A program made the translations under genes and the position numbers. From positions 1 to 48,420 of the forward strand of contig JAFIGG010000021.1 of NCBI GenBank assembly GCA_020831485.1: DNA of 48,420 nt, written 5' to 3'. The notes under the pieces are model-generated. The model searched no databases, was not told where the DNA came from, and saw only the letters and a program-made list of their open reading frames with translations. This stretch comes from Opitutales bacterium (GTDB lineage: Bacteria > Verrucomicrobiota > Verrucomicrobiia > Opitutales > Oceanipulchritudinaceae). This document shows positions 151 to 31,627 of this stretch, piece by piece (position 1 is the first letter of the stretch; each line of letters starts with the position of its first letter).

Positions 151-2045
151 GTCCGGAAGCGTTTTTAGCAAACTTCGGCCATGTGGCCAATGCGCCGGGA
201 GGAGTTGAGAAGCTGCGGGAGTGCATTCTTTTTGCTGCCATCAATGGCATGCTGGTCGACCAAAACTCCAACGATCAACCTGCATCTGGATTACTAGATG
301 AAATAGCCAAGGCGAAACAGAAGCTTATTTCAGGTAAGGGTTTGAAGCCACCTAGGCGATCGAAAGAACAGTCAAACCCTCCTGCTAATCAAATTAGGGT
401 GCCCAATGGATGGGAGATGGTGGTTAACCATGATCTCTTCTTTCTTCGCAAAGGTAAAAAGCCAAAGACTCTCATAAATACAGCTTCTAAGTATCCATAC
501 TTGGATATTGAAGCACTAGACCGGGAGCATATTAGGCGATATACTGACGATGAGAAGTGTCCGAGATCCACATCCAAGGATCTAGTTATCGTTTGTGATG
601 GATCGCGTAGCGGGCTGATCCTTAACGGGCGGGACGGTGTTATCGGGTCCACACTAGCAATTGTAGAAACCCCGGAGTTTCTGCAGCCTTACCTGAAGAT
701 TCTGTTTTTAGAGGCCTTTCAAAGATTAAATTCAACGATGAAGGGAGCTGCAATCCCTCACCTGGATACAAAGACACTGTTGTCCTCATATACAAAGCTT
801 CCACCCTTCGCCGAGCAAAAGCGCATCGTGGAAAAAGTGGATGCTTTGATGGCCTTGTGTGATCGGCTGGAGGAACAGCAACGGGAACGCGCGGAATTGC
901 GACCTATATTAGCGACCGCCACCCACACCCGCTTCACCGAAAACCCCACCCCCGAGACCCTCCGCGCCTGCTTTGCCGAACCCGGCCACGCCAACCCCAA
1001 AGAACTTCGCAAAACCATCCTCTCACTGGCACTCAGAGGAGAGCTTGTTGCCCGCGATTTAGATGAAGGCTCGGGACATGAAGTTCTAGAGAAGCTTAAA
1101 CGAATTCGCACATCAATGATAGCCGATAAAAAGTTGAGGAAGATCCGGTTAAATGGATTCAATAAGACCGATAGTCCATATCGTATTCCTTCCAACTGGA
1201 TATGGGCTCAGCTTAATGACTTCATTGATGTCCGAGATGGAACTCACGACTCGCCAAAAAACTCTTCCGAAACTGATTCTGTTCCTCTAATCACAAGCAA
1301 AGATTTTAGTGACGGGAAAATTAACTTTTCTAATGCCAAACGAATTTCGTTGAAGGATCATTTAGAAATATCAAAACGCTCGAAGGTAGACCGTTATGAT
1401 ATTTTGTTTTCAATGATAGGAGGAAACATTGGAAACCAAGTTATGGTCCAGTGCGATGCGGAGTTCAGCGTTAAGAACGTTGCTCTTTTTAAATACTATG
1501 ACAAGGAATTATCTCTTCCTGGTTTCCTTAAAATCTACTTTGAGCACTTGGCATTTGGCTTACAACAAAAAGCTATTGGAGGTGCTCAACCTTTTGTGTC
1601 CTTAGGCCAACTGAGGAACCTATATATAGCTGTCCCTCCAACAGCCGAACAACGCCGCATCGTCGCCAAGGTAGACGAATTGATAGCGCTTGTGGACAAG
1701 CTGGAGCAACAGCAAGCCCGCCGAGAGGAGATGGCAGCCGCCTTTGCTCAAGCCGCCGTGAGTGCCCTCACCGGCACCGAATTCAAACCGAAAGCTGAAA
1801 AGATGAAAGCACCCAAGACCGAACTGATTTCCATGGTCCGCCTCCGCGCCAACCCGGACGACGAGGACACCGCACCGCTGGCCACTCTGCTGGCGGCCAA
1901 TAACGGCGAACTCGAAGCCAAGACCCTCTGGCAACGCTCGGGCCTCGCCATTGAGAATTTCTACCAGCAACTCAAGATGGAGATTGCCGCCGGCTACCTC
2001 CAACAGCCCGAGGAAGCCAAGCTGCGGGAACTATCCAATAAGTAG
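147..2045 (+). CDS. hsdS: Type I restriction-modification specificity subunit HsdS
   Basis: This 632-residue protein is the DNA-recognition subunit that directs the HsdM methyltransferase (and HsdR) to a bipartite target. It shows the two-fold HsdS layout: two target-recognition domains, each followed by a conserved motif and coiled coil, PPFAEQKRIVEKVDALMAL (about residues 215-235) and PPTAEQRRIVAKVDELIAL (about 497-516). The second half-repeat opens with an ELRKTILSLALRGELVARD-type segment mirrored at the N-terminus. It is longer than the usual 400-450 residues. About 80 extra C-terminal residues look like a small helical or winged-helix module. The recognition domains are visibly AT-richer than the GC-rich conserved segments. 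The start is fixed by the ATGA overlap with hsdM. Confidence 0.93.
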   Translation: MSPEAFLANFGHVANAPGGVEKLRECILFAAINGMLVDQNSNDQPASGLLDEIAKAKQKLISGKGLKPPRRSKEQSNPPANQIRVPNGWEMVVNHDLFFLRKGKKPKTLINTASKYPYLDIEALDREHIRRYTDDEKCPRSTSKDLVIVCDGSRSGLILNGRDGVIGSTLAIVETPEFLQPYLKILFLEAFQRLNSTMKGAAIPHLDTKTLLSSYTKLPPFAEQKRIVEKVDALMALCDRLEEQQRERAELRPILATATHTRFTENPTPETLRACFAEPGHANPKELRKTILSLALRGELVARDLDEGSGHEVLEKLKRIRTSMIADKKLRKIRLNGFNKTDSPYRIPSNWIWAQLNDFIDVRDGTHDSPKNSSETDSVPLITSKDFSDGKINFSNAKRISLKDHLEISKRSKVDRYDILFSMIGGNIGNQVMVQCDAEFSVKNVALFKYYDKELSLPGFLKIYFEHLAFGLQQKAIGGAQPFVSLGQLRNLYIAVPPTAEQRRIVAKVDELIALVDKLEQQQARREEMAAAFAQAAVSALTGTEFKPKAEKMKAPKTELISMVRLRANPDDEDTAPLATLLAANNGELEAKTLWQRSGLAIENFYQQLKMEIAAGYLQQPEEAKLRELSNK

Positions 2046-2051
2046 TCAACC

Positions 2052-3053
2052 ATGGCGGAGCAAATCATCTTCTACCGCACCCCCAAGGGTGACCGCCGGA
2101 TCGATGTGATCTATCGGGACGAGACCTTCTGGATGCCCCAGCGGGCGCTCGCGGATCTATTTGCAGTGGGGGTGCCCGCGATCAACAAGCACCTCAAAAA
2201 CATTTTCGACAGCGGCGAATTGAGTGCGGACTCAACTGTTTCCAAAATGGAAATAGTTCGAATGGAGGGGACGCGGGAGGTCCGCCGCAAGGTCGATTGC
2301 TACAGCCTGGACGCCATCATCGCCGTCGGCTACCGGGTCAACAGCTACGAAGCGACCCAGTTTCGCATCTGGGCCACCCGGACGCTCAAGGAGTTCATCA
2401 TCAAAGGCTTTGTGCTCGACGACGAACGCCTCAAACAGGGCAAATCCTTTGACAAAGACTACTTTGACGAACTGCTGGAACGCATCCGCGAAATCCGGGC
2501 CAGCGAGCGCCGCTTTTACCAGAAGATCACCGACATCTACGCCCTCTCCGCCGATTACGACCCACAGGCTCCCATCACGCGCGACTTCTTCGCCACGGTG
2601 CAAAACAAGCTGCATTGGGCCATCACGGGCAAGACCGCCGCCGAAACCATCTATCTGAACGCGGACGCCAGCAAACCGAACATGGGATTGACCACCTGGA
2701 AGAGCGGACCAGAGGGGAAGGTATTGAAGAGTGATGTCACCGTCGCCAAGAACTACCTCAACGAGCAGCACATCAGGGAATTGAACCGCATTGTTTCCGC
2801 CTATCTCGATCTAGCGGAAAATCGCGCCGAGCGTCAGATCGCCATGAACATGGCCGACTGGGTGCGCTTTCTGGACAGCTTTCTGGAACTTTCCAACTAC
2901 CCGGTCCTCGAGGACAAAGGCACCATCTCGGCGCTGGAAGCCAAGATCAAAGCCGAAGCCGAATTTCAAACCTTCCGCAAGAGGCAGGACCGGGAGTTTA
3001 TATCCGACTTTGACGCGGAAGTAAAACGCCTCAAAGGCAATACTGACGGATAA
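2052..3053 (+). CDS. rhuM: RhuM family protein
   Basis: This 333-residue protein matches the RhuM family often found inside type I restriction-modification operons. It has the typical opening IIFYRTPKGDRRIDVIY, a FWMPQRALADLF helix, the INKHLKNIF segment and FRIWATRTLKEFIIKGF, followed by ERIREIRASERRFYQKI. The N-terminal half resembles a DNA-binding Bro/KilA-type module, and the helical C-terminal half ends in a charged tail. The biochemical role of RhuM is unsettled. It starts 6 bases after the hsdS stop and ends 2 bases before the next gene, so it is co-transcribed with both. Family assignment is firm; function is unknown. Confidence 0.88.
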   Translation: MAEQIIFYRTPKGDRRIDVIYRDETFWMPQRALADLFAVGVPAINKHLKNIFDSGELSADSTVSKMEIVRMEGTREVRRKVDCYSLDAIIAVGYRVNSYEATQFRIWATRTLKEFIIKGFVLDDERLKQGKSFDKDYFDELLERIREIRASERRFYQKITDIYALSADYDPQAPITRDFFATVQNKLHWAITGKTAAETIYLNADASKPNMGLTTWKSGPEGKVLKSDVTVAKNYLNEQHIRELNRIVSAYLDLAENRAERQIAMNMADWVRFLDSFLELSNYPVLEDKGTISALEAKIKAEAEFQTFRKRQDREFISDFDAEVKRLKGNTDG

Positions 3054-3055
3054 TT

Positions 3056-4720
3056 ATGCACCTCGAACGACTCTACATCAAAAGCTGGCGCAACCTGCGC
3101 GACTTCGAGATCGATTTCACCCGGAGTGCTCTGGACGATTCGGGCAAAGCCGAGTGCGACAGCGAAGGCCAGCCCATCGAACTGAAAAGCCATGCGGTGA
3201 TCGGCCAGAACGGTTCCGGCAAGTCCAACCTGATCGAGTCCATCGTCACCATCTTTCGCGACCTCGACCTGAACGAGAAGACAGCCTTCGACTACGAACT
3301 CACCTATCAGGTGCGCGGCCACCGTGTGGAAATCAAAACCACCGGAGAAAAGCCCGAAGCATGGATCACAGACAAGGACAGCGACCAGCCGAAGAAGCGA
3401 GCCCTCTCCTTTCTCGCCAAGAACGCCAACACCTACTTGCCGTTGCACGTGTTTGCCTACTATTCCGGGCGGAGCAACCGAGTCGAAGCCCTGTTCCAAC
3501 GCCACCAGCAACGCTTCTACAAGGCGTTGACCGAAGGAAGCGACGAACTGCTGCGGCGCCTCTTCTACTGCCGCACGGTACACAGCCAATTTGTCTTATT
3601 GGCCTACCTCCTGAACGAAGGGGAAGCGGAGAGCAAAGAGGTCAACCAGACTGCGGCGATCCTCGATAAGCTAAACATCGAAGACCTGGACTCGGTCCTC
3701 TTCGTCCTCAAGCGGCCCTACTGGAACCGGGAAGACGACGTAAGCGAGAAGGTCCTCGAATACGGCGACCCGCGCTTCTGGTATGCACGGGGCATCGTGC
3801 AGGAGTTTCTCGACAAGCTCTGGAAGGTTGCCATTGCGCCAATCGACCATACGGAGAACCGCCTGGTTGATTACCGCGGTCGCCGCGAAGATCAGGACCT
3901 GCTTTACCTCTTTGTTCCCGACAAGGCGGCTCTGCAAGCCCTAGCCGCCGAGATCGGTGAGCCCTCACGCTTCTTTAAGTATCTGGAGAGTACCTACATT
4001 TCCGACCTAATCGATGAGGTGCGCATTAACGTGAAGCACCGTGATGTGGACGGTAACATCACCTTTGGCCAGCTCTCCGAGGGCGAGCAGCAGCTTCTCA
4101 CCGTGTTGGGCCTGATGCGCTTCACCAAAGAGGACCAATCACTTTTCCTTCTAGACGAACCCGACACCCACCTCAACCCGCTCTGGAAGTTCCGCTTCTT
4201 CGACGAGATCGAGGAGACGGTGAGCCTGCAAAAGGATACGCTCATGGGTGACTCCCAGCTCATTGTGACCACCCACGACCCGATCATGATCGGCAGCCTG
4301 CGCAAGGAGCAAGTTCGCATCCTCCGCAAGACCACCGGCGGGCGGGTCGAGGTCAGCCAACCGGATATTGACCCGCGAGGCATGGGCTTTGCCGGACTCC
4401 TCAAAAGCGAACTCTTTGGTCTACGCTCCACGGTGGATACTGAAACCCTGAAGCGACTGGATCGCCGGAATTTTCTCTACTCAAAAGGTGATCAAAGAAC
4501 GCCTGGAGAAAACGAAGAAATGTCCCGACTCAGCGATGAACTCTCCGACCTCGGCTTCGCCAAAGACTTTAAAGACCCCTACTACGCAAAATTCGTCGAG
4601 AAGCTGGCCCAGCACACAAAATTCCACAAATCGGTGCTCACCCCCGAAGAACAGGCCGAGCAAGATCGCGTCGCCGACGAGATCATCACGAAAATCCTGG
4701 CGGAGGAGAAAAAAGCATGA
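3056..4720 (+). CDS. AAA/ABC-type ATPase, PtuA-like (Septu-type defence)
   Basis: This 554-residue SMC/RecF-like ATPase carries a Walker A at residues 50-57 (GQNGSGKS), an ABC signature LSEGEQQ near 340-346, a Walker B LFLLDEPDTHLNP with D367/E368, and a switch histidine in VTTHDP. The region between the two nucleotide-binding halves is helical. The next gene is an HNH nuclease overlapping it by ATGA (4717-4720). An ATPase of this class paired with HNH is the arrangement of Septu PtuA/PtuB and of the effector pair in some retrons, so ATP-controlled nuclease defence is the likely role. No reverse transcriptase or retron RNA is visible nearby. An R-linked RloA-like ATPase of type I loci is an alternative name. 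Confidence 0.82.
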   Translation: MHLERLYIKSWRNLRDFEIDFTRSALDDSGKAECDSEGQPIELKSHAVIGQNGSGKSNLIESIVTIFRDLDLNEKTAFDYELTYQVRGHRVEIKTTGEKPEAWITDKDSDQPKKRALSFLAKNANTYLPLHVFAYYSGRSNRVEALFQRHQQRFYKALTEGSDELLRRLFYCRTVHSQFVLLAYLLNEGEAESKEVNQTAAILDKLNIEDLDSVLFVLKRPYWNREDDVSEKVLEYGDPRFWYARGIVQEFLDKLWKVAIAPIDHTENRLVDYRGRREDQDLLYLFVPDKAALQALAAEIGEPSRFFKYLESTYISDLIDEVRINVKHRDVDGNITFGQLSEGEQQLLTVLGLMRFTKEDQSLFLLDEPDTHLNPLWKFRFFDEIEETVSLQKDTLMGDSQLIVTTHDPIMIGSLRKEQVRILRKTTGGRVEVSQPDIDPRGMGFAGLLKSELFGLRSTVDTETLKRLDRRNFLYSKGDQRTPGENEEMSRLSDELSDLGFAKDFKDPYYAKFVEKLAQHTKFHKSVLTPEEQAEQDRVADEIITKILAEEKKA

Positions 4721-5613
4721 GGTGGATCGACTTTGAAAACAAGAAGCCGACCGATGCGTTCGAGGGATGGACTCCCTGGCCGCAAGATCGCTGGCAGACG
4801 TGGCAAACCAAATCCCAAAGGCTTAGGGACGATCTCATCAGGCTGTACACCGAAGCCGAGTCTCTTAAAGCTCAGGGCGATACGGTCGGCGCACAAGCAA
4901 GAATCATCGAGAGAAACAAGATGATCGACGATAACAGCGATCACTGGGCCGAGTTGAAACCCTGGCTCTTTTCGCTTTCCAGTGGCAAGTGCTGGTTCAC
5001 CGAGGGCCGCGATATTTGTTCGCACATGGATGTTGAACATTTCCGTCCTAAAAAGGAAGCGAAGGGGCTGGATGGCGCAGTAAGGGACGGTTACTGGTGG
5101 CTTGCCTTTGAATACAGCAACTTCCGCGCAGCCGGCAACGTCCCCAATCGAAAAAAAGGTGGATGGTTTCCTCTCCACAGGGATTCGCAATGTTCAACCT
5201 ATACAGCGAGGTGTGAAGAGTCTGAGGCCCCCTATTTGCTTGATCCAACGCGGCAGTCAGACGCTCAACTACTTGCGTTCGATGAAGAGGGAAATGCCAT
5301 TCCAACACCAGATGCAGACGAATGGGAGAAAGAGCGCGTCGAGGAATCAATCAAGCGCCTAAAGCTGAATGAACACGATGCATTGCCCCAAGAGCGCCGT
5401 AAAGTTTGGCAGCAGGTATCGGATGCGATTGAAGGCTATTTGGAGGCGAAATCGAGATACAAACCGGGCCTCAATCCAGCCCCAGCAACAACAATGGAGG
5501 AAAAGTTGCGCTTCATCCAACGGTGCACCCGCGAAGATGCCGAACTATCATCGGTAGCGATATGGTGCATCCGATTTCGAAATGACGCCAAACTACTACG
5601 ACTGGTTTCGTAA
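4717..5613 (+). CDS. HNH endonuclease, PtuB-like
   Basis: This 298-residue protein has an HNH core at about residues 90-150. It contains GKCWFTE (C92), then C101 and DVEHFRPKK (D105, E107, H108), with downstream NF and NRKKG positions (N135, N141, N144) completing the fold. This is the layout of PtuB-type nucleases partnered with PtuA ATPases. The N-terminal 85 residues are helical and charged and may dock the ATPase; the C-terminal half is helical with no recognised motif. The start overlaps the ATPase stop (ATGA), giving translational coupling. The 3' end overlaps the next frame by 32 bases. DNA is the expected substrate, but host tRNA or RNA cannot be excluded. Confidence 0.82.
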   Translation: MRWIDFENKKPTDAFEGWTPWPQDRWQTWQTKSQRLRDDLIRLYTEAESLKAQGDTVGAQARIIERNKMIDDNSDHWAELKPWLFSLSSGKCWFTEGRDICSHMDVEHFRPKKEAKGLDGAVRDGYWWLAFEYSNFRAAGNVPNRKKGGWFPLHRDSQCSTYTARCEESEAPYLLDPTRQSDAQLLAFDEEGNAIPTPDADEWEKERVEESIKRLKLNEHDALPQERRKVWQQVSDAIEGYLEAKSRYKPGLNPAPATTMEEKLRFIQRCTREDAELSSVAIWCIRFRNDAKLLRLVS

Positions 5614-6424
5614 TTTCCTAACCAAAAATGGAATCCATCAATTAATGATTACAAATCAACAAGCAAAACAACGGCTGGACCAATTTCAGCGAGCGATGTG
5701 GTCGTTCAATGAAATTAGAGATTGGTTTGGCTGCGATTTGGAAGAGGCTCCTCAACATTTACTCGCCCAATATCGAATCTGGGCGGCTCGCTATGATGAC
5801 ACGATGAAGGTTTTGGACTTGAGTGGGAAGCTTATTCACCGGAATCTATTCGAGCGATTCTTACAAGACCGTGAGTTGATTCCGATTCGGCATGCTGCAT
5901 TGAGATGGGGGATGAACGTTGAGTCTTTCATCAGCGTGCTCGAGGCATTGCATACTAAGGGAATGATCTCAAACACTGAAAAGGAGGGTGAATTTCAATG
6001 GGTTTTCAGGAAAACATTCGTATCAGACATTCACCATCGTTTTTCGAATATTTCTCGGATTATCTTCGCAAGTTTTCCGAGCTACGTGCGACGATTGCAT
6101 TCCGAAATTCAAAGCTGTTTGGACGTAGAACCAGCATCCGCGTATTGCGCAACATCCGTTGCGCTTCGAGAAGATCTGTTAGATTTCGGATACCGGCTTG
6201 ACTGCATTACAAGCGAACCGGTTGGACTCGGTCGCCAGATTTGGCTGGATACTCGAAAGCCGATACAACTAGAGCTAGATGGATGCTCATGGCTAACAAT
6301 GGCGAGATTCTACGATTCGCTTAACGGTTCTGTTCTCGGAAACATGCCGGATGAATTTGAGGAAAAGAGAGAGATTCTACGCCAATACATCAATGACTCC
6401 GACTCTACTATCAACGGGGGCTAA
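5582..6424 (+). CDS. Uncharacterised protein in the defence operon
   Basis: I do not recognise this 280-residue protein. It is soluble and mixed alpha/beta, without a signal peptide or membrane segment. One stretch (about residues 95-130, ending EALHTKGMISN) looks like a winged-helix DNA-binding fold. Trp and aromatic residues are frequent, and the DNA is AT-richer than the RM genes before it. The chosen ATG overlaps the HNH gene by 32 bases. A later ATG at 5645 would remove the overlap, but neither has a clear ribosome binding site. It lies between the HNH gene and another unknown gene, so a partner or regulator of the same system is plausible but unproven. Confidence 0.6.
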   Translation: MTPNYYDWFRNFLTKNGIHQLMITNQQAKQRLDQFQRAMWSFNEIRDWFGCDLEEAPQHLLAQYRIWAARYDDTMKVLDLSGKLIHRNLFERFLQDRELIPIRHAALRWGMNVESFISVLEALHTKGMISNTEKEGEFQWVFRKTFVSDIHHRFSNISRIIFASFPSYVRRLHSEIQSCLDVEPASAYCATSVALREDLLDFGYRLDCITSEPVGLGRQIWLDTRKPIQLELDGCSWLTMARFYDSLNGSVLGNMPDEFEEKREILRQYINDSDSTINGG

Positions 6425-7157
6425 CCAAGCTTTATCGATCCTTTCCGGATCTACCAAGGGCGATGGCACTGAGAGTTTCCCCGGCTGGATGAAAGGAAAG
6501 GAAGATATTCGCATTAGAAACGATCAATCAATTTGGGACTGGTTTCGTGGTATCGTGGGCCAATCCGAAGATGTAGTTGATCTAATCCTTGAATCCGCGA
6601 TTAACGATCATTTCTCGCTTATGGGAAGTTTGAGCTGGAAGGATGGGTGCATTTCATTCTGTCGATTGCACGCACTCATCGTTGAGGAATGTACCCTTCT
6701 CGATTTTTACTCGTCCGAGGGCACCGACAATTCAAAGACCCAATACTATCGCCTGGACTATGATCCGAGTAAACCCGGACCTCTGTTCAGCGAACCTATT
6801 CCGCACATTCATTGCTGTCCGGAAGGGTCTCCCCGCATCCCCTTACCCGGTAATGATGATGAAACTCTACCAATTCGATTTTTGGAGTTCATTTACCTGA
6901 ACCATTTCCAACAGGATTGGATAAAGTGGGTCAAGGAGGAGGTAAAATGTCGAGGTAAAATCGACCTTCCGATTGATGCTATTGTAGAAGGGTATGCATC
7001 TGGTTCCATCCTCGCTCGCTTGGACGACTTCGATCCTCACCTCAACGAGTTACGGGCCATTCTAGGTGCAAGTAAGAGGAATCATTCTCGTTCTAGCTCA
7101 CTAATTCCCCCAGCCATCCGAACACTCAACTACACCGCGACGGACGCTACTTCATGA
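6393..7157 (+). CDS. Uncharacterised protein in the defence operon
   Basis: I do not recognise this roughly 254-residue protein. It begins near MTPTLLSTGANQAL; an upstream in-frame ATG at 6351 would add 14 residues but would overlap the previous gene by 74 rather than 32 bases. The sequence is acidic and aromatic-rich (FPGWMKG, WDWFRGIVG, HFQQDWIKWVKEE), with no signal peptide or membrane segment. The frame ends at TGA 7155-7157 inside an ATGA shared with a truncated copy of the RecD-like gene. That is the same junction the helicase gene makes with the full RecD-like gene, so this gene may once have been directly coupled to it. DNA composition is AT-richer than the RM genes. Confidence 0.55.
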   Translation: MTPTLLSTGANQALSILSGSTKGDGTESFPGWMKGKEDIRIRNDQSIWDWFRGIVGQSEDVVDLILESAINDHFSLMGSLSWKDGCISFCRLHALIVEECTLLDFYSSEGTDNSKTQYYRLDYDPSKPGPLFSEPIPHIHCCPEGSPRIPLPGNDDETLPIRFLEFIYLNHFQQDWIKWVKEEVKCRGKIDLPIDAIVEGYASGSILARLDDFDPHLNELRAILGASKRNHSRSSSLIPPAIRTLNYTATDATS

Positions 7158-7327
7158 AAGTCACCCAACACCTCACCCTCCGCGTAGCCTGGCACGATGC
7201 AAAATGGGCTGGCACCGTCTGTAACGCTCCTTCCAAGAATTCATTTTGCGTCATGATCGACGGTGTGCGGGAAGAACGGGATGACACAGCCGAAGATGCT
7301 CTGAGTGGTAACAACGGGAGAAATTGA
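7154..7327 (+). pseudogene. Truncated 5' fragment of the downstream RecD-like helicase gene
   Basis: A 57-codon frame begins with ATG at 7154 and repeats the start of the gene at 12101. The first 18 codons are identical and the rest is closely similar, up to a one-base deletion near 7320 that brings a TGA into frame (7325-7327). The encoded peptide retains two conserved cysteines (C23, C32) but only a small part of the N-terminal domain. It lies between an unknown gene and the large helicase gene. It is most simply a remnant of a duplication made when the helicase gene was inserted or rearranged. A small expressed peptide is possible, because the ATGA coupling to the gene before it is kept. 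Confidence 0.8.
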
Positions 7328-7346: not shown

Positions 7347-10300
7347 ATGAACACCTCTTCCCGAGCCGATCCTTTTTCCCCATTCGGAGGTCTCCGTATA
7401 TTTTTGGAAGAACGTCAAAAATCCCGTCTCAGCGCCTACGAACACTGCAAGCACGACATCACAGAGCATTACAACATCGAACAAAACATCCTCGCCGGAG
7501 GCTATGGTTACCGGCAGATCCTCGAATTAGTGCAGAATGGCGCGGATGCGATTCTGGAAGCCTGTGAAGCCGGGGAGGACTCATCCCATGAAGGCCGGAT
7601 ACATGTGGCGTTGCGGAAAAACTGCCTTTACGTCGCGAACACGGGTGCGCCACTGAGTCCAGACGGATTGGATGCACTGCTTAGTTCTCATTCCTCCTCA
7701 AAACGCAAAAATCAGATCGGCAGATTCGGGATCGGGTTTAAGTCTTTGCTTCGTCTTGGAGGCAGAATCGATTTGATCAGCAAGGGGTCTGGGCTTATCC
7801 GCTTCGATCCGGCCCAATGCAGGGAAGAGTTGAAATCGCAATTCGGCGTGGAAAACGCCCCCGGCCTTAGAATGGCGTGGGCCATTGGAGATGCGAATAG
7901 GGAGCAGGATTCGTTTTTATCCGAATTCGATTGGGCGGAAACCATTGTGAGGGCAGAGGTCACTCAACAAAATCTAGCCGAACATCTATGTGCAGAGATC
8001 GAAGGCTTTCCAGCGGAGTTTCTTTTGTTTCTACCTGTAACCGTCTCACTGACCCTGGATTCGGGCGGAGATAATACTCTTCGGGATCTGCGACGGGAGA
8101 AAGAACGAGAGGTCATCATCCTTTATGATCGCTCGACAACCTCCCGCTGGAGAGTTTTCGAGGAACCAATGGTAGCGATCTCAGATCCCGCTGCACGTTC
8201 CGATGCCACCCACATCCATGCACGGAAAACCGTCCCAATAGCTTGGGCCCTTCCCATGGACAGCAAACGAGAAGAGGCTGGCCGTTTCTGGGCCTTCTTT
8301 CCGACCCACACGCCAACCTATTTCCCCGGTATCCTCAATGCTCCTTGGAAACTGAATAATGACCGTAACGCAATTATTGGTGGAGCATGGAACGATGAGC
8401 TGATGAGGAAAGCGGCTGACCTCATCGGCAAGGTTTTGCCAAAGCTTGCCACGGAAGATGATCCGGGACGGATTCTTGACGCATATCCCCGGCAATTGGA
8501 ACGGGCTGATGACGATGCCGCACAACTGGTTAACGCCGTTTGGGCGTTGTTGGAGGAGAAAGCGGTCTTACCAGACGGCCATGGAGAGCTACGTCCGGTC
8601 CATGCCTTATGGCGACATCCTGAAACAAAAGCGGATATCCTGGAGAGGTGGAATGAGTTGGCTGATAAGGACGAACGCGCACAGTTTGTTCATCCCACTT
8701 GCCAGAAGGGCGTCCGGGCCAGTCGTATCAAGGTGCTCGCAGACCGGCTAAGATCCAACGCCGAGGGAACGAGCGATCAACCACAATTGAGTGTTTATAG
8801 TTCTGCTTCATGGTTTTCAGTCATCGCATCCGATGCTCCGCAGCACGCAATCAAGGTATTGGCTTTAGTTGAAACCTTTATGGAGCAGTGCGAAAACTGG
8901 CGCTGGAATCGACTACGTCCCGATCTAAAAATAGTCCCTACGCCCACCGGTGAATTACTCCCACCGGGAAAGCTCGTCCTCGCCAAAGACCAAGTCGGCG
9001 TTCCCGAGGGTAGATTCATCGTTCACCCCTTACTCCTTGAAGATGACGAGTCGCTCCGTCGCCTAAAGGAGGTTCTGGAGATTGCCCCCTTGGACGACGA
9101 TACTTGGACAACGGTTTTGCAGGATGCTTTAGCTGGTGCAGGGGACTGGACGGAGTTCTGGAATAAATTAAGGACGGCTCCCGAGGTGGTCCGAAAGAAT
9201 TTCGTAAAACGGCAAGGTGGAAAAATCCGTGTGCGACGAAATGACGGCGAATGGGTCTCCGCCAACGATGCCTTACTTCCGGGTGTGCTAGTGAATACTA
9301 ACGATACCGCCAATGCCCACATCCTCATAGATCTGGAGTTTCACCAGAAGCATGAAACGGAACTGGAGCTTTTGGGGGTGAGGGCTTCGGCAGGTGGTTG
9401 GGTGGAAGCAGATCACGACTCTCAATTCCTTTCCGCATGGCTCAAGTCATGTCGCCGAGAATATAAGAACACTTACGACAACTCCGCTTCCTGGAAATAC
9501 CTACTGGCCTTCAACTTGAAAATGCCGGGGGGGTGGGAATTCCTTCCTCGCTTGAAAGGTGCGGCAAAGAGCAGGCTTACTTGTCACTTCCTTGCCTCTT
9601 TGACCGCTAAGGAATGCGTAGAGGGAGTTCGGTTTGGCCATCGAACCAGCAATCATTATCCGGAAATTTGCGTTCGTCACCCACTTCAAGAGTTTCTCCT
9701 ACAATATGGCGCGTTCCTCATCGGAGAAGATGCAGTTCCATTGGCGGTGGTGGTGGCTAGAATGGATGAACCAGCCCTCGCCCTCCTACCGGAATGGAGG
9801 GATATCCGGGACCTGGTAGAGTCTTTGGCGACAACGGACGGGCATACCGGCGAAGGTGCAGAAACGTTCTGGCTAGCACTCATTGGCGCACTTACAGCCC
9901 AGAAACCAGTTGAAGACGATTCACTGGAGGTGCTCTGGGCTAGTGCGGCACAGGGTGGGTGCGTTCCCGAATCATTACAAGGACCCGCCGGTGCGGTCTC
10001 GCTTGAGGAAATTTACGTAACGACCTCCTCGGATCTCGCTCGTCGAGCAAGAAATAGAGACCGGATCGTGCTCGCACTTGATCACGATACCGCTCAGACG
10101 TGGCTGCAGAAGGGTGCACGCGACTTGGCCGAGTTGCTCCAACCTGAGTGGGAGGATCATTCCTCAGGATCAGCTGCTCTCCTGATCGAAGCGGTTCCTG
10201 AACTAAAAACCGTCATGTATGACGTAGCTGCAAGAACTGCGGTTTGTCGTCTTGTTGCTACGCTTTATCTGAAAATCAGTGATGCCCGTGAGCGTATTTC

Positions 10301-12104
10301 CTGCCTCCTTTGGGAGGACGTTTTGCTGCTTGATCAGGAGAGTATGGCATCACTGCCGCGTTCGGATCGCCTGCGGGTGTTGCTCGGTGAGATCGCTGCA
10401 ACAGGGTGGCTGAATTGTCCGCTCGTTGAAGCGTTGGATAAACTTGCCGATTCCCAAGTTGAACAGCTCCGTGAGCATGTGGCTGCGGGTGCGACACTGG
10501 CGGAGAAGCTCAGGCGCGCAGTTGGAGAAAGACGAGAGCCTCTACTGGAAGCACTTGCTGGATTGGGCCAGATGGACTTTGTCGTGTCGTGTGATCTGGG
10601 TAAACTCGCAGACTTAGTGCTGGCGCAACTCGGGCCGACTACTCTAAGCGTGCTACAAAATACGCTCGATGCGGAAGGCCTGCACCCGCCGGGCCGCTGG
10701 AATACGGCAGAAGCGCGGAGTTTCGTCGCAAGCATTGGCTTCCCCGAAGTATTCGCCACATCGCCCGTTACCAGACGTGATCCTGAAGAGATCATTAATG
10801 GGCCGATTCACTTGCCTCCGTTGCACCCATTTCAGCAAGACGTGTTCGATGGTGTAAGCAGCTTGTTGAAAAGCCCTGCTCCTCGCCGCCGGGCGGTCAT
10901 AAGCCTGCCCACTGGTGGCGGCAAAACGAGGGTGACGGTTCAGGCTGCGGTCGAGCTAATTTTGCATCCTGAATCAACCGAGCGCAGTGTGTTGTGGATC
11001 GCGCAGTCCGACGAACTTTGCGAACAAGCGGTTCAATCTTTTCGGCAGGTTTGGATCAATCGAGGTTCAGAGAAAACCGATTTGCGGGTTATTCGGCTTT
11101 GGGGCAGCAATCCTTATCCGGCTCCGGCAACCGGTGGACAGCCTGTTGTTGTGGTCGCTTCTATTCAGACACTGAACAGCAGGATGGGCCGCGAAGAATT
11201 GGAGTGGCTTAAGAAGCCGGGACTGGTTATTGTCGATGAGTGTCACCATGCAATAGCTCCCAGCTACACCGGATTGCTGCGGTGGCTCGATGCCGACGGT
11301 CGACCCAGAAATGAAGCGCTGGAGTTTGAACCACCTATTATCGGATTGAGCGCGACTCCCTTCAGATCGGACGACGAGGAAAGTCATCGTCTTGCCAGGC
11401 GGTTTGACAATCGCTGGTTGCCGGAACAACAGGAAGATCTCTACGTTCAGCTCCAGGAAACCGGCGTGTTATCCCGATCTACTTATCGTTCCCTCGAATC
11501 GGGCTCAGGTTTATTGGAGAACGAAGCGGATGAAATGGGGCGGCTGGAAGATTCATGGGATGGCCCCGAATTCAATCAACTGATTGAGTTGATCAACCAA
11601 CGCCTGGCAAAGGATTCGGCCCGAAGTGAGCGAATCTTGGAATACATTCAATCATCGGATGAAAGGTCGATTCTTCTTTTCGCAAATTCGGTCGACCACG
11701 CCGGAGAAATGGCTGCCCGTCTTAACCTTGCCGGGATCTCCGCAGCAGCCGTCAGCGGAGGAACGGCCCGTTCCTCGCGACGCTATTTCATCGACCGCTT
11801 TCAACGTGGTAAAATACGGGTTCTTTGTAATCACAGCGTCTTAACCACAGGATTCGATGCACCAAAGGTGGACATGGTGCTGATCGCCAGACAGGTATTC
11901 AGCCCTGTCCGCTACATGCAGATGGTCGGCCGAGGGCTCCGAGGAGAAGCAAATGGCGGAACGGCATTCTGTAGCATCGTTACCGTGATGGATAACCTTG
12001 GACGATTTCGCAGCCGGCATCCTTACAACTATTGCAAGCAGTATTTTGAAAAACTGACCTCCGTAGAAGGTGCAGAATCCGTAAGACAGATTTCTAATTT
12101 ATGA
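7347..12104 (+). CDS. Hsp90-like (sacsin-type) ATPase domain fused to a superfamily 2 helicase
   Basis: This protein has 1585 residues from ATG 7347; an in-frame GTG at 7305 would add 14 but lies inside the repeat. The N-terminus is a GHKL/Hsp90-like ATPase of sacsin type: N-box ILELVQNGADAI with N64, NTGAPLS, and the glycine box GRFGIGFK at 125-132. A long middle region (about 300-1150) lacks recognised motifs. The C-terminus is an SF2 helicase: Walker A PTGGGKT (K1193), motif II DECH (1297-1300), motif III LSATPF and motif VI QMVGRGLRG (from Q1525). The fold suggests an ATP-driven DNA-remodelling or sensing machine. It ends in an ATGA overlap with the RecD-like gene. I cannot assign it to a named defence system. 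Confidence 0.85.
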   Translation: MNTSSRADPFSPFGGLRIFLEERQKSRLSAYEHCKHDITEHYNIEQNILAGGYGYRQILELVQNGADAILEACEAGEDSSHEGRIHVALRKNCLYVANTGAPLSPDGLDALLSSHSSSKRKNQIGRFGIGFKSLLRLGGRIDLISKGSGLIRFDPAQCREELKSQFGVENAPGLRMAWAIGDANREQDSFLSEFDWAETIVRAEVTQQNLAEHLCAEIEGFPAEFLLFLPVTVSLTLDSGGDNTLRDLRREKEREVIILYDRSTTSRWRVFEEPMVAISDPAARSDATHIHARKTVPIAWALPMDSKREEAGRFWAFFPTHTPTYFPGILNAPWKLNNDRNAIIGGAWNDELMRKAADLIGKVLPKLATEDDPGRILDAYPRQLERADDDAAQLVNAVWALLEEKAVLPDGHGELRPVHALWRHPETKADILERWNELADKDERAQFVHPTCQKGVRASRIKVLADRLRSNAEGTSDQPQLSVYSSASWFSVIASDAPQHAIKVLALVETFMEQCENWRWNRLRPDLKIVPTPTGELLPPGKLVLAKDQVGVPEGRFIVHPLLLEDDESLRRLKEVLEIAPLDDDTWTTVLQDALAGAGDWTEFWNKLRTAPEVVRKNFVKRQGGKIRVRRNDGEWVSANDALLPGVLVNTNDTANAHILIDLEFHQKHETELELLGVRASAGGWVEADHDSQFLSAWLKSCRREYKNTYDNSASWKYLLAFNLKMPGGWEFLPRLKGAAKSRLTCHFLASLTAKECVEGVRFGHRTSNHYPEICVRHPLQEFLLQYGAFLIGEDAVPLAVVVARMDEPALALLPEWRDIRDLVESLATTDGHTGEGAETFWLALIGALTAQKPVEDDSLEVLWASAAQGGCVPESLQGPAGAVSLEEIYVTTSSDLARRARNRDRIVLALDHDTAQTWLQKGARDLAELLQPEWEDHSSGSAALLIEAVPELKTVMYDVAARTAVCRLVATLYLKISDARERISCLLWEDVLLLDQESMASLPRSDRLRVLLGEIAATGWLNCPLVEALDKLADSQVEQLREHVAAGATLAEKLRRAVGERREPLLEALAGLGQMDFVVSCDLGKLADLVLAQLGPTTLSVLQNTLDAEGLHPPGRWNTAEARSFVASIGFPEVFATSPVTRRDPEEIINGPIHLPPLHPFQQDVFDGVSSLLKSPAPRRRAVISLPTGGGKTRVTVQAAVELILHPESTERSVLWIAQSDELCEQAVQSFRQVWINRGSEKTDLRVIRLWGSNPYPAPATGGQPVVVVASIQTLNSRMGREELEWLKKPGLVIVDECHHAIAPSYTGLLRWLDADGRPRNEALEFEPPIIGLSATPFRSDDEESHRLARRFDNRWLPEQQEDLYVQLQETGVLSRSTYRSLESGSGLLENEADEMGRLEDSWDGPEFNQLIELINQRLAKDSARSERILEYIQSSDERSILLFANSVDHAGEMAARLNLAGISAAAVSGGTARSSRRYFIDRFQRGKIRVLCNHSVLTTGFDAPKVDMVLIARQVFSPVRYMQMVGRGLRGEANGGTAFCSIVTVMDNLGRFRSRHPYNYCKQYFEKLTSVEGAESVRQISNL

Positions 12105-12283
12105 AAGTCACCCAACACCTCACCCTCCGCGTAGCCTGGCACGATGCAAAATGGGCGGGCACCGTCTGTAACGCTCCTTCCAAGAATTCATTTTGCGTGA
12201 TGCTCGACCGTGTTCGGGAAGAACGGGACGACGCGGCCGAAGATGCTCTGAGTGGCAAGGACTGGAGTGAATTGACTCCGGAA
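12101..12283 (+). repeat. Direct repeat, right copy (start of the intact RecD-like gene)
   Basis: This is the right-hand copy of the repeat at 7154-7335. It keeps the open frame, whereas the left copy lacks one base and stops. Recombination between the copies would remove the helicase gene and leave an unknown gene coupled to an almost normal RecD-like gene. Confidence 0.9.
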
Positions 12284-15200
12284 CAGCTTCCTCCCTGCAA
12301 AGCGGAATCGGGTGTATTCATGAATCCTCATCCCTGGTTTCGCCGCTTCAAACATCCCTACGCGGATAACAAGAAATGTGCGGCCACACACGGGGGGATG
12401 AAGGAACGGTTGGTTCAGGTTCCTCCCTTCACAGCGATTGCTGTGCCTTTTCATTGGATGCTTGCGCGGGAGCAAGACGCGATTGATGGTCGCCTGCCGG
12501 TTCCAATGCCATCCGATGAAAAGGCCCCTTTTGTTTCTCCATGGGTTTTTGGGAAGGAGCGGCAGTGCGCTCTGACTGAACATGTATTCGGAAAACTGTC
12601 CGAGCAGGAGTCGCTCGTCTTCTTTTACACCAAAGAAGGCCATCCTCTAGGCGAGGGGATTCGGCGGCTGGTGGTCGGGGTCGGCAACATCACCAAAGTC
12701 GGAAAGCTTCAGCGTTATGACTCTGAAAAGGGCACCGGCTATCCCCTTTGGGACCGCCTCATTAGCCACAGTATCCGCCCAGATGGCGAACAGGGTTTTC
12801 TACTGCCCTATCATGAGTATCTTGAAGCGACTGGCGACCCCGAAAAGGACTCCCGTAGACGCGAGCTACTGAAAGAAATCGTGGTCGAGCCCGATGCTTC
12901 GCACCAGATTTCATTTTCCTACGGCTCCGAGGTTACGCGCGGCGATGTTGCGTTGTCGGTGTTGGTTCGATGCCTGAAAGCCGTTCAAAAAATCCGCGAG
13001 CATGGCATTGCCAAGGGCCCGTGGCAGGCACGGGAAGATTGGTTGAATCGTCAGCTCGCCGCAGCGTGGAAGGATCGGGGTGCTTTCCCTGGCACCGGCT
13101 CGGCACTTGAGGCGTTAGGCATGCGCTTGGGGACCGCCTTGGTCATGGAAATGCGCGCGGCAGGAACATTGACCGCAGAGCAAAATCCGTGGCCGGTCGT
13201 GGCCGGTGTTTTAGAAGGAAAATCCCCACCGCCACAAAGAGCCTACGAGCCTGACCTTCGCAATATTTGTCCGGTTTGGAGAGCCCTTCCGGATGAGCGA
13301 CGCGTGCTCCTGCAGCTCCTTTCACGCTTTGATCTGACCCCCGACCAGGCAACCCGCTTCTTCGACCCGTCCAAGAGACGGGACAGCCTATCTCCCTATC
13401 CCTCGGACAAAGAGATAATCGAAAACCCCTACCTCCTGGCCGAAAGCGACATCGGCACTTTCACCGAAAGTCCTGTATCAATGACAACGATTGACCGCGG
13501 GCTGTTGCCGGATGAAATGGCCGCTGGCGGTGATCCAGTCCCGGCTCCAAGCCATGTTGAAACGCCAACGGACCCTCGTCGGGTGAGGTGCGCTTTGGTG
13601 GGCGTCCTGAGGAGTGCAGCAGAAAACGGGGACAGTCTTTTGAGCCTCGCCGATTGTCAGGATCGCCTGGCAAAGCTGGATACCAAGCATACCATTCAGG
13701 TGACCACGGATTGGTTGAGGGGGCACATTGCTTTCGTCGGCAATCGGGTCCGCTACGAGGTACTCGACCCTGATGGCACGAATACACACTCAGTGGAAAC
13801 CTTACAGTTGGACGAACTTGCAAAACGCGAAGATCGCCTTCGAAGAGTGCTCAAAGCACGGGTATTGAAGCCGGTGCCTTCCCTTGCCGTAAACTGGACC
13901 GACCTGCTTATTAAAGCCATTCGGGACAGTGGCAATCAAGTCGACCTGGCAAATGATCGCCACAAACAGGCGCTTGCCGAACAGGCTCATGCCTTGGAGA
14001 ACATCACGACCCGACGGTTGTCCGTTCTCATTGGTCAAGCGGGCACTGGAAAAACCTCCGCCGTTGGTGCCTTGGTGGAGTGCGAGCCCTTGCTCAAGGA
14101 GGGAATACTGCTCCTGGCACCGACAGGAAAGGCGCGCGTCCGCTTGTCGAGCGCGACCAAAGGCACCGAAGCCAACACGATTGCCCAATTCCTTTATTCC
14201 TTGGGGCGTTACGACGGCAGTCGACAGCGTCCACGTTTTGGAGACGAGAATCCTCAGGCAAAGAAGTACAGTGGCGCACAGACTATAGTCATCGACGAGG
14301 CATCGATGCTCACGATGGATTACCTCCAAGCCATCCTCGACGCAATCGATATGGCCCACGTGAAACGAATCATCCTCGTAGGAGATCCCAACCAGCTGCC
14401 CCCCATCGGAGTTGGTAGGCCTTTTGTGGACCTTGTTTCCTTTCTCGAGAACGCCAAAACAGAGCCCGCAAAAGAAGCGCCTTCAGGCGCACTGGGACGT
14501 TTATCGGTGGAAGTGAGAACCCGAGGCGATGAAGCGTCGGATGCCCTGAGGCTGGCGTCGTGGTATACCAGTCAGCCGGTTGATGGACTGGCCGAAGCGG
14601 TGCTGAGCGAGATCGGGGAAAGGTCGGAGTTCAATGACCTTGAAATTGCTTTCTGGAAAACACCGGATGATCTGCGCAAAACGCTTCTTGCCCACTTCAA
14701 GAAACATCTAGGAATCCAGGGTCCAGAGGACGCTGATGGCTTCAATGCCGCTTTGGGCTTTATCGATGGAAATGTGTCCTTTGCCAATCCTGAAGGGGTT
14801 GAAAACTTTCAAATTTTATCGCCGGAGCGCGCACATCCTTACGGCGTTCATGACCTCAATCGGTGGATACAGAGCCTTTTTCGGGCCAGAGAATTGCGAA
14901 ACGCCCGCCAATACTACAAGAAGTCTTTGGGTGATGAAGATATTGTGATGAAGGACAAGGTCATCCAAGTCATTAACAAGAAGCTTCATGGTTTCGATTG
15001 GAAAAAACGCCAAAAGGAACAGCACTATATCGCAAACGGAGACATCGGTGCGGTCGGGCCCGAGAAAAATGGATACCTAAATGTAGCCTTTTCCGGAAAG
15101 CCCGATCTGACATTCGGCTATTCCGGAGCAGAGTTTGGGGAATTCGCCTCACCCCTGGAACTCGCTTACGCACTCACGATTCACAAGGCGCAAGGCAGTC

Positions 15201-15802
15201 AATTCGGGAAGGTCTTTGTCATTCTTCCGAAAAGCTCCCGATTGCTTTCGCGGGAGTTGCTTTATACTTCTCTGACGCGATCCAGGGACCAACTCGTTCT
15301 CCTGATCGAAGGCGACGATGCGGGGATTTTGCATGAACTCAGCAAGCCGGAACATTCCAACGCTGCCTGCCGCAACACGAACCTTTTTAGCGCCGTGGTC
15401 CGTAAGGCCCCGGACGAACCTCCGCATGCCGAGCACCTGATTCACCGAACTCTCAAAGGTCACATGGTGCGCAGTAAGTCTGAACTGATTATTGCGGATA
15501 AATTGTTCAGAGCGGATATCAAATACGACTACGAAAGGCCCTTGGATGGTTCGACTCGAAAAGGACGTATCTTTCCCGACTTCAGCTTCACTGACGCGGC
15601 GGGCGACTTGATCATCTGGGAACACTTTGGCCGAATGGATGATCCCCAGTATGTAAAAGGGCACGAGTGGAAAATGCGCTGGTATTCGGAGAATGGCTTT
15701 ACAAAGGGCGAGAATCTTTTTGTTACCGAGGAGACTTTGAACTCTGGTCTAGACTCCACTCAACTCGAGGGTGTTCTAGCAGAGATTCGGGAATTAATTT
15801 GA
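12101..15802 (+). CDS. RecD-like superfamily 1 helicase with extra N-terminal domain and nuclease-like C-terminus
   Basis: This 1233-residue protein has three parts. The first (about 1-130) holds W18, C23, C32 and a later LPPCKAESGVFM segment, and may bind metal. A central SF1B helicase of RecD/TraA type follows, with Walker A GQAGTGKT (645-652), Walker B VIDEAS (D732/E733), GDPNQLPPIG, THKAQGSQF-like motif V (read as TIHKAQGSQF) and LYTSLTRSRDQL motif VI. The C-terminal ~100 residues contain SKSELIIADKL, PDFSF (D1160) and IIWEHFG (E1174). These resemble a PD-(D/E)XK nuclease-like fold, although the usual lysine is not in the ExK place. Unwinding coupled to DNA cleavage is the likely activity. 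The start is set by ATGA overlap with the helicase gene. Confidence 0.85.
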   Translation: MKVTQHLTLRVAWHDAKWAGTVCNAPSKNSFCVMLDRVREERDDAAEDALSGKDWSELTPEQLPPCKAESGVFMNPHPWFRRFKHPYADNKKCAATHGGMKERLVQVPPFTAIAVPFHWMLAREQDAIDGRLPVPMPSDEKAPFVSPWVFGKERQCALTEHVFGKLSEQESLVFFYTKEGHPLGEGIRRLVVGVGNITKVGKLQRYDSEKGTGYPLWDRLISHSIRPDGEQGFLLPYHEYLEATGDPEKDSRRRELLKEIVVEPDASHQISFSYGSEVTRGDVALSVLVRCLKAVQKIREHGIAKGPWQAREDWLNRQLAAAWKDRGAFPGTGSALEALGMRLGTALVMEMRAAGTLTAEQNPWPVVAGVLEGKSPPPQRAYEPDLRNICPVWRALPDERRVLLQLLSRFDLTPDQATRFFDPSKRRDSLSPYPSDKEIIENPYLLAESDIGTFTESPVSMTTIDRGLLPDEMAAGGDPVPAPSHVETPTDPRRVRCALVGVLRSAAENGDSLLSLADCQDRLAKLDTKHTIQVTTDWLRGHIAFVGNRVRYEVLDPDGTNTHSVETLQLDELAKREDRLRRVLKARVLKPVPSLAVNWTDLLIKAIRDSGNQVDLANDRHKQALAEQAHALENITTRRLSVLIGQAGTGKTSAVGALVECEPLLKEGILLLAPTGKARVRLSSATKGTEANTIAQFLYSLGRYDGSRQRPRFGDENPQAKKYSGAQTIVIDEASMLTMDYLQAILDAIDMAHVKRIILVGDPNQLPPIGVGRPFVDLVSFLENAKTEPAKEAPSGALGRLSVEVRTRGDEASDALRLASWYTSQPVDGLAEAVLSEIGERSEFNDLEIAFWKTPDDLRKTLLAHFKKHLGIQGPEDADGFNAALGFIDGNVSFANPEGVENFQILSPERAHPYGVHDLNRWIQSLFRARELRNARQYYKKSLGDEDIVMKDKVIQVINKKLHGFDWKKRQKEQHYIANGDIGAVGPEKNGYLNVAFSGKPDLTFGYSGAEFGEFASPLELAYALTIHKAQGSQFGKVFVILPKSSRLLSRELLYTSLTRSRDQLVLLIEGDDAGILHELSKPEHSNAACRNTNLFSAVVRKAPDEPPHAEHLIHRTLKGHMVRSKSELIIADKLFRADIKYDYERPLDGSTRKGRIFPDFSFTDAAGDLIIWEHFGRMDDPQYVKGHEWKMRWYSENGFTKGENLFVTEETLNSGLDSTQLEGVLAEIRELI

Positions 15803-17521: not shown

Positions 17522-17583
17522 TTGGCCTGCCATGAGCAAATGGAGCGAAGCGAAATGCGTCGAATGGCGGAGGGTGAGGGATT
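17522..17583 (+). repeat. Short repeat copy C, running into the tRNA-Ser gene
   Basis: The first 44 bases are identical to copy B; bases 17565-17583 are the real 3' end of tRNA-Ser. It is probably the source copy from which A and B derive. Confidence 0.8.
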
Positions 17584-17652
17584 CGAACCCCCGAGACCTT
17601 TCGGCCTAACGGTTTTCAAGACCGCCGCGTTCGGCCACTCTGCCAACCCTCC
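17565..17652 (-). tRNA. tRNA-Ser (anticodon UGA)
   Basis: Read on the minus strand, the 88-base gene starts GGAGGGT and ends ACCCTCC-G-CCA, a perfect 7-bp acceptor stem with encoded CCA. The anticodon loop is CTTGAAA with anticodon TGA. A long variable arm (AGGCC-GAAA-GGTCT) is typical of class II serine tRNAs, and the T-arm carries GGTTCGAATCC. It reads UCA-type serine codons. The 3' end abuts the repeats described separately, making it a likely integration target. Confidence 0.97.
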
Positions 17653-31596: not shown

Positions 31597-31627
31597 TTCA
31601 TTCCACATCCCATTCCGGACCGCACAC

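Follow-up and report, generated by a model that had tools for sequence, protein, structure and literature searches.

A single open reading frame on the forward strand of the window (the whole stretch of 48,420 nucleotides analysed here) encodes a protein in which a sacsin-type GHKL ATPase is fused to an SF2 helicase, and this fusion is conserved across about ten phyla. We use the name SacHel for the product of the reading frame as well as for its family of fusions. About half of the relatives of SacHel are found in or beside genes for DNA modification or DISARM-like defence. With moderate confidence we regard SacHel as a DNA motor that serves modification-based anti-phage systems as an accessory part, with a mechanism that we infer from fold and genomic context. 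The frame gives 1585 residues and a stop codon, without internal stops, and comprises the following parts.

7347-12104, forward strand: SacHel, fusion of a sacsin-type GHKL ATPase and an SF2 helicase, 1585 residues (translation, profiles, alignment)
7440-8447, forward strand: GHKL domain and S5 transducer, residues 32-367 (AF2 model m3082bd0e57fc, VIA-align)
8484-10796, forward strand: middle scaffold of alpha/beta elements, residues 380-1150, without an assigned fold (mostly confident prediction)
10797-12086, forward strand: SF2 helicase core, RadD-like, residues 1151-1580 (profiles, structure model)

An upstream extension of the frame to a GTG at 7305 (1599 residues) is possible. Since this codon falls within a duplicated fragment of a RecD gene and most homologues begin to align only at about residue 10-30, the ATG at 7347 is the preferred start. 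The GHKL motifs consist of E60 and N64 within ELVQN as well as G125-K132 (GRFGIGFK); the helicase motifs consist of K1193 in LPTGGGKT, DECH at 1297-1300, and Q1525 of motif VI in YMQMVGRG. Every residue named in the original prediction (all of the above except E60) is found in the translation, and its description of a sacsin-type Hsp90-like ATPase and an SF2 helicase in one chain is correct according to translation, profiles and structure matches. The NCBIfam model of the sacsin ATP-binding domain (NF047352) matches SacHel with 61.4 bits, over its cut-off of 50, and Pfam ResIII and Helicase_C both exceed their cut-offs on the C-terminal part. Pfam SACS (PF25794, 20.9 bits) lies under its gathering cut-off of 32.8, as HATPase_c_3 and HATPase_c lie below theirs. 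No nuclease domain is recognised in SacHel by the Pfam, NCBIfam and PADLOC profiles.

Two overlapping AlphaFold models, each computed from a 49-row alignment, cover residues 10-1160 (mean pLDDT 88.1) and 640-1585 (mean pLDDT 87.4). Their pTM values are only 0.57 and 0.66, respectively, and the arrangement of the domains is therefore uncertain. Residues 32-367 align with Hsc82 (VIA-align Z 16.6, 267 aligned residues, 4.4 Å) and also match Topo VI-B (Z 16.1), SMCHD1 (Z 15.2) and GyrB. A PDB search with the 49-row profile of residues 10-1160 ranks sacsin chains first (lizard sacsin, E 3e-5), followed by Hsp90, and a search of viral structures with the SacHel head gives Hsp90-like, RIIA-like and topoisomerase-like matches. 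The original prediction had left some 850 residues between the two ATPases unassigned. Part of them, residues 190-367, forms the S5 transducer in the AlphaFold model, whereas residues 380-1150, which were barely covered by structure searches that reached mainly head and helicase, are indeed without an assigned fold. Within this scaffold, one pair of internal repeats (388-479 and 515-609) is weakly supported with an hhalign probability of 59.5. It is the only one of 15 segment pairs with a probability above 5, and we make no claim of tandem repeats across the entire scaffold. The helicase core, residues 1151-1580, aligns with DbpA (Z 29.1, 335 aligned residues, 3.4 Å) and RadD (Z 26.6). By sequence, no solved helicase is closer than RadD, which Foldseek also ranks first (E 1.1e-14).

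Conservation of the motifs was assessed in an alignment of 60 rows, comprising the window, L005, L093 and those of 71 loci whose picked reading frame has at least 1380 residues. The pattern E-L-x-Q-N is retained in 53 rows; it is absent in four whose frame lacks the N-terminus (L025, L028, L035, L092), in two that are diverged or misaligned (L029, L062), and in L088, where the wrong frame was picked. The latter is also the sole row to fail the helicase motifs, hence Walker A, DExH and the glutamine of motif VI are retained in 59 of 60 rows. This retention of active-site residues, across phyla at 27-56% identity, together with the full-length open frame and intact active sites of the window copy, speaks against a decayed fusion that has lost its function and is a passenger of a mobile island. 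We consider such decay highly improbable, although a truncated RecD copy adjoins SacHel and the assemblies show some relatives in truncated or split form.

SacHel is a real and conserved family with a patchy spread. A scan of named genomes with limited patterns, and hence a lower bound, gives at least 71 loci. In a sample of 387 genomes of the phylum, ten match SacHel at E<=1e-20: five harbor the fusion or a clearly recognisable portion (the window's own genome G000, G158, G066, G015, and G318 with a fragment at a contig end), and the remaining five harbor only the helicase part. A viral collection gives no match with a single-protein query and one SacHel locus with an alignment query. A tree of 58 rows (the alignment without L005 and the mispicked L088), with labels from ten phyla, is divided into a DECHH clade of 28 rows, which includes the window, and a DEAH clade of 30 rows. 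The closeness to RadD would suit a helicase of DNA repair or genome maintenance that occurs in variable islands by chance. We think this quite improbable, as it accords poorly with the patchy spread within the phylum, with the many neighbours that are defence genes, and with a window copy that lies in a restriction operon beside a duplicated gene start. The genes and repeats in question are listed below.

1-150, forward strand: 3' end of hsdM, whose gene starts on contig G000:C34 (frame read by eye)
147-2045, forward strand: hsdS, Type I specificity subunit (profile matches)
2052-3053, forward strand: RhuM family protein (profile matches)
3056-4720, forward strand: PtuA-like ATPase, Septu (PADLOC, 655 bits)
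4717-5613, forward strand: PtuB-like HNH protein, Septu (PADLOC, 307 bits)
5582-6424, forward strand: orfA, without a family match (profile scans)
6351-7157, forward strand: orfB, without a family match (profile scans); its stop codon overlaps the start codon (ATG) of the truncated RecD copy
7147-7320, forward strand: direct repeat copy 1, truncated duplicate of the start of the RecD gene, just upstream of SacHel, 57 codons followed by a stop (BLAST)
12094-12267, forward strand: direct repeat copy 2, start of the genuine RecD-like gene, 92% identical to copy 1
12101-15802, forward strand: RecD-like helicase, PADLOC candidate PDC-S68 (1353 bits, residues 2-1229 of 1233)
15482-15631, forward strand: C-terminal E...PDF...EHxG motif, residues 1128-1177 of the RecD-like protein (unchanged in all 8 homologues compared)

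The genes hsdS, rhuM, ptuA, ptuB, orfA, orfB, SacHel and the RecD-like gene all point in one direction. Adjacent genes overlap or are separated by a few bases, and only SacHel is preceded by a longer gap, about 190 bases, which contains the repeat; the RecD-like start codon, for example, overlaps the SacHel stop (ATGA). The window begins with 55 bases that are identical to the last 55 bases of the reverse-complemented contig G000:C34, and by this overlap C34 likely adjoins the window. An N6-methylase on C34 leaves the contig end in frame with window positions 1-150 and ends across the hsdS start codon; it is preceded by a helicase frame of 838 residues, which is presumably hsdR. On the strength of the overlap, the in-frame methylase and the helicase frame, the operon very likely reads hsdR-hsdM-hsdS-rhuM-ptuA-ptuB-orfA-orfB-SacHel-RecD. 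SacHel resembles HsdR as an SF2 motor within an hsd operon and differs from it by the lack of a recognised nuclease domain. Because the Type I system of the window very likely has its own restriction subunit, SacHel would be dispensable for restriction there, and the general claim that SacHel replaces HsdR, to which the orders hsdM-SacHel-hsdS in L024 and hsdM-RecD-SacHel-hsdS in L022 had pointed, was dropped. Drm genes are absent from the window operon, whose genes match hsdS, rhuM, ptuA, ptuB, the RecD-like family or nothing in profile scans. Between 22 and 48 kb, ten scanned proteins give no sign of a prophage: two of them match PHROG families, and their best matches have no assigned function.

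The PDB profile matches of the RecD-like protein are RecD2 and RecD. Near-full-length relatives occur in 4 of the 387 genomes of the phylum sample; at E<=1e-40 there are matches in 17 genomes, the other 13 of which share mainly the RecD core. Of 20 SacHel genomes with long flanks, selected on the same side of the family as the window, five have such a near-full-length relative, and in four of these five its position beside SacHel was already known. In the L046 genome the gene is located outside 10 kb on either side of SacHel. The last 130 or so residues of the RecD-like protein contain the E...PDF...EHxG pattern, which we take to be typical of PD-(D/E)XK nucleases and treat as a candidate assignment. 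In one of three homologues scanned, Pfam gives a TPD match to this C-terminus that stays under the threshold (16 bits against a cut-off of 27); there is no Pfam match over cut-off and no meaningful one in the PDB.

The two copies of the direct repeat share 92% identity over 174 bases (BLAST: 190 bases, 90.5%). The upstream copy encodes roughly residues 1-51 of the RecD-like protein, with its ATG overlapping the orfB stop just as the true RecD ATG overlaps the SacHel stop. The simplest reading of this sequence arrangement is that orfB-RecD was the former operon and that SacHel arrived as a cassette carrying, or duplicating, the RecD start. The order hsdM-RecD-hsdS, found in two genomes without a SacHel match in the phylum search (L111 and L112), would represent the empty state before the insertion. 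The third full-length RecD outside the window (L113) sits at a contig end. Among 61 loci tested by DNA, a long repeat hugging SacHel occurs only in the window. The other matches consist of 21 bases in L047, an inverted repeat in L073, a self-match of overlapping stretches in L056, and 62 bases at 82% identity in L065, located 1 kb upstream and 2.4 kb downstream of SacHel. A test for such scars at the protein level (42 loci, 168 shuffled pairs) gives 105 bits for the window, 25.0 for L047 and 23.9 for L086. The best unrelated control reaches 22.7 bits; a control of 48.9 bits pairs the window with another RecD gene. Since their scores barely exceed the unrelated control, the scar in L047 is only suggestive and that in L086 seems to be noise. 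In L034 a fragment of a RecD start (49 residues, 55 bits) lies directly behind SacHel.

Neighbours of SacHel were counted within 8 kb over 73 loci (the window and L022-L093, including truncated loci and the mispicked L088); clusters of neighbours were named by PADLOC or Pfam on one representative each and extended by HMMs built from the same loci, at more than 100 bits. DrmA or DrmB is found in 27 loci, HsdM/HsdS without Drm in 5, only a RecD-like gene in 4, and none of these in 37. Among the 48 loci flanked on each side by 4 kb or more, the corresponding numbers are 26, 4, 3 and 15. We note that short contigs partly account for the 37 loci without scored partners, yet 15 of the 48 long-flank loci have none either. 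Four loci scored as having none do possess other modification systems: in L032 SacHel is directly behind a profile-matched BREX pglX-pglZ-brxL, L033 has identical clusters in identical order, and a Type III and a Type IIG methylase are near SacHel in L026 and L057, respectively.

On the tree, 27 rows carry the Drm label: every one of the 25 rows of a clade with SH-aLRT support of 100 and, in the other clade, L034 and L039. DrmA or DrmB is near SacHel in 25 of the 30 rows of the DEAH clade. A consecutive order SacHel-UvrD-DrmA occurs in 19 of 73 loci, with DrmB next in 16 of the 19. The likeness to DISARM consists of DrmA/DrmB, often with a C5 methylase, near SacHel in Actinomycetota, Chloroflexota, Acidobacteriota and two Pseudomonadota loci; the difference is that SacHel and usually a UvrD-like helicase lead those Drm operons, while the window has no Drm genes. 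DISARM also features DrmC and a methylase of the DrmMI or DrmMII type. The single C5 methylase that was scanned near SacHel scores 296 bits as Type II versus 79 bits as DrmMII.

Outside the DISARM-like clade the gene order around SacHel is variable. A label for Type I, BREX or RecD requires 8 changes for 9 rows of the tree, and shuffled labels are equally low in 155 of 500 cases; being scattered in this way, the association is loose. The original prediction had proposed to look for the domain pair beside RecD-like genes. Such a pairing exists in 6 of 73 loci, and in a seventh if the RecD fragment of L034 is counted, so RecD is an occasional and not a defining partner. A common small partner upstream of SacHel was rejected, as the compared upstream proteins (12 named and 16 looked up) are mutually unrelated. 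Exceptions are an Actinomycetota group (c7), the near-identical pair in L036 and L063, and a short weak match of this pair to L044. As a rough background rate, 50 SacHel genomes (approximately 288 Mb) contain 155 N6-methylase matches, about 0.5 per Mb with gene pieces counted separately, and in 5 of the same 50 genomes HsdM lies no more than 8 kb from SacHel. Clustering of defence genes in islands could yield part or all of the neighbour associations of SacHel.

Profile searches, named in the original prediction as its refuting test, did not refute it, as they did not place SacHel squarely in a characterised defence family. TmtA of Tiamat matches no more than residues 19-496, corresponding to 30% of the TmtA model. 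The homology concerns the sacsin-type GHKL domain and transducer, i.e. the first 420 or so residues (hhalign probability 99.3 over SacHel profile columns 12-413; PADLOC 183 bits over model positions 12-466 of 1538). The helicase half of SacHel has no similarity to TmtA (hhalign probability 0.1), and the two TmtA members scanned (L123 and L124) carry NOV_C at the C-terminus, with no helicase seen in either. Neither the SacHel of the window nor that of L048 has a whole-length match to a PADLOC 2.0.0 model. The shared head and differing C-termini would fit a Tiamat-like defence by a single gene, in which head and scaffold sense infection, the C-terminal module (NOV_C or helicase) is the effector, and methylases are mere co-residents of the island. 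The 37 loci without scored partners, the unfixed gene order outside the DISARM-like clade and the scattered Type I/BREX/RecD label point in the same direction. A gene acting on its own is at odds with the Drm genes within 8 kb in 25 of 25 rows of the DISARM-like clade and with the consecutive SacHel-UvrD-DrmA order, and pairs of separate GHKL and helicase genes among relatives suggest a joint machine instead of sensor and effector. Taken with this evidence, a self-sufficient Tiamat-like gene appears unlikely, if far from negligible.

Such split pairs were found among 12 helicase-only relatives, namely H1, H2 and H4-H10 (the best nine helicase rows of 92 plasmid records) and L019-L021; the helicase-only genomes G101 and G379 of the phylum search are outside this set. 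A GHKL protein is in the same cluster in nine of the 12, directly adjacent in eight (H1, H4, H6-H10, L020) and one gene away in H5, and was not found near the helicase in H2, L019 and L021. The GHKL HMM was seeded with proteins of H1 and H5 and a third one from the record of H3, all Pfam HATPase_c_3 matches; six plasmid cases and L020 are therefore independent of the seed. H3 itself has a sacsin-type head without helicase (1096 residues), located on an Arthrobacter plasmid in an operon with C5-methylase, GHKL, PD-(D/E)XK and Z1 genes. H1, H5, H6, H8, H9 and H10 have a PLD protein, by annotation or by Pfam match, and genes of phosphorothioation type (PAPS reductase, cysteine desulfurase, DndB) are near several split clusters. 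The plasmid clusters thus resemble SacHel in the helicase domain (30-36% identity) and in the GHKL gene adjacent or one gene away; they differ in having two polypeptides, a GHKL of HATPase_c_3 type, a PLD protein, and phosphorothioate-type genes in place of methylases. The SacHel helicase domain also scores up to 58 bits on the PADLOC models of PbeA, described in the passages available as an HKD-SF2 fusion (PMC10853773). PbeABCD has been reported, in the available part of the source, to halt virus replication without cleavage (PMC6459918), which is disputed in passages of PMC10853773.

A concept of this kind is already published. According to the available text of Iyer et al. (2008, PMC2292703), GHKL-S5 ATPases of restriction operons cooperate with SF2 helicases, methylases and nucleases, and looping or remodelling of DNA is proposed. 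These MORC/paraMORC systems share with SacHel the combination of GHKL-S5 and SF2 helicase beside methylases and, as a candidate in the case of SacHel, a nuclease; as described there, they are encoded by separate genes, whereas SacHel unites a sacsin-type head, a large scaffold and the helicase in a single polypeptide. The GHKL-S5 unit is present in the SacHel model (Z 15-16 to Hsp90, Topo VI-B and SMCHD1), the SF2 partner is fused in SacHel and paired in the split relatives, and methylation is represented in the window operon by hsdM (via the likely C34 overlap) and hsdS; the E...PDF...EHxG motif of the RecD-like partner would be the candidate nuclease. The original prediction had proposed a conformational sensor that licenses DNA remodelling. 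This guess is partly supported: it agrees with the 2008 proposal, and in several relatives the two ATPases are encoded by separate neighbouring genes; sensing and licensing are conjectural. The word sacsin does not occur in the main text of PMC2292703. A YprA/ARMADA preprint describes many uncharacterised DISARM-like classes, and in its available text sacsin, Hsp90 and GHKL do not occur (PMC12458937). Among the titles and abstract openings listed for the openly licensed literature we found no description of a sacsin-type ATPase-helicase fusion; the openly licensed literature searched also gave no paper on DISARM together with sacsin and no experiment on any member of the SacHel family. SacHel does not fall squarely within any family of the libraries searched and is best seen as a fused, one-chain variant of the GHKL-SF2 restriction machinery predicted in 2008.

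For SacHel as an accessory motor of modification-based defence, fold and context suggest the following course. The gene would have joined the hsd-RecD operon as a cassette. With ATP, two GHKL heads may close in the manner of Hsp90, MutL and Topo VI-B and thereby form an ATP-gated clamp or loop around DNA. Closure of the heads would position the SF2 motor, which would translocate on DNA that is not protected as self, and the RecD-like partner, with its probable nuclease domain, would unwind and cut that DNA. Where a nuclease partner is lacking, SacHel may block or strip replication complexes. The information on self and non-self would come from the associated modification enzymes, HsdM/HsdS in the window and C5 methylases, PglX or others elsewhere.

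A more far-reaching reading, which we hold only tentatively, is that SacHel is a transferable clamp-motor cassette, taken up independently by Type I, BREX and DISARM-like systems and performing the same ATP-gated step of DNA trapping in each. If this is true, one family would link systems hitherto treated as unrelated, and the bacterial sacsin-type head would be a DNA clamp and not a chaperone. Pairs of a GHKL ATPase and a helicase recur in defence-linked clusters, for which the published passages available give no worked-out mechanism; with both ATPases in one chain, the coupling is testable by two point mutations. The SacHel family connects DISARM-like, Type I and BREX-adjacent loci and, via its helicase-only relatives, phosphorothioation-linked ones, and the window is a likely example of such a part being added to a restriction operon.

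In the window, the stretch between hsdS and the gene for the sacsin-type GHKL ATPase/SF2 helicase fusion (SacHel) of the Type I operon (2052-7157) carries RhuM, a Septu-like PtuA/PtuB pair, and the orphan genes orfA and orfB, neither of which has a match in Pfam, NCBIfam or PADLOC. Downstream of the defence operon, a tRNA-Ser (tga; 17565-17652, minus strand) adjoins prfC and possibly marks an island boundary. The products of 31484-33829 and 26202-28262 are chromosomal proteins that match PHROGs of unknown function with 409 and 239 bits, respectively. Contig C8 of the same genome opens with a further N6-methylase gene (locus L117, G000:C8:352-6000), followed by an hsdS-like frame, as judged by eye, and another long open frame.

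At the SacHel locus L047, a short stretch that looks like a remnant of the hsdS start (9918-10010; 25 bits, versus 22.7 for controls) lies immediately 5' of SacHel and hsdS proper immediately 3'. The remnant is a possible second insertion scar, in addition to the duplicated RecD gene start upstream of SacHel in the window. At L034, the start of the RecD-like gene is present as a fragment (14659-14898; 49 residues, 45% identity) directly 3' of SacHel.

At L111 and L112, which lack SacHel, hsdM and hsdS flank the RecD-like PDC-S68 gene, and at L112 a UG5 reverse transcriptase comes next after this set. Homologues of the Tiamat protein TmtA, which resembles SacHel only in the head, carry a C-terminal NOV_C domain at L123 and L124, scoring above the Pfam cut-off. 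Seven plasmid loci (L135, L136, L138-L142) harbor helicase-GHKL clusters, most with a PLD protein, with genes of phosphorothioation type (PAPS reductase, cysteine desulfurase, DndB/DGQHR) alongside.

Finally, SacHel is found in operons of the order SacHel-UvrD-DrmA-DrmB (L048, L060, L083, L084 and L089, among others), often with a C5 methylase close by. Across Actinomycetota, Chloroflexota and Acidobacteriota, these operons look like an undescribed DISARM-like class.
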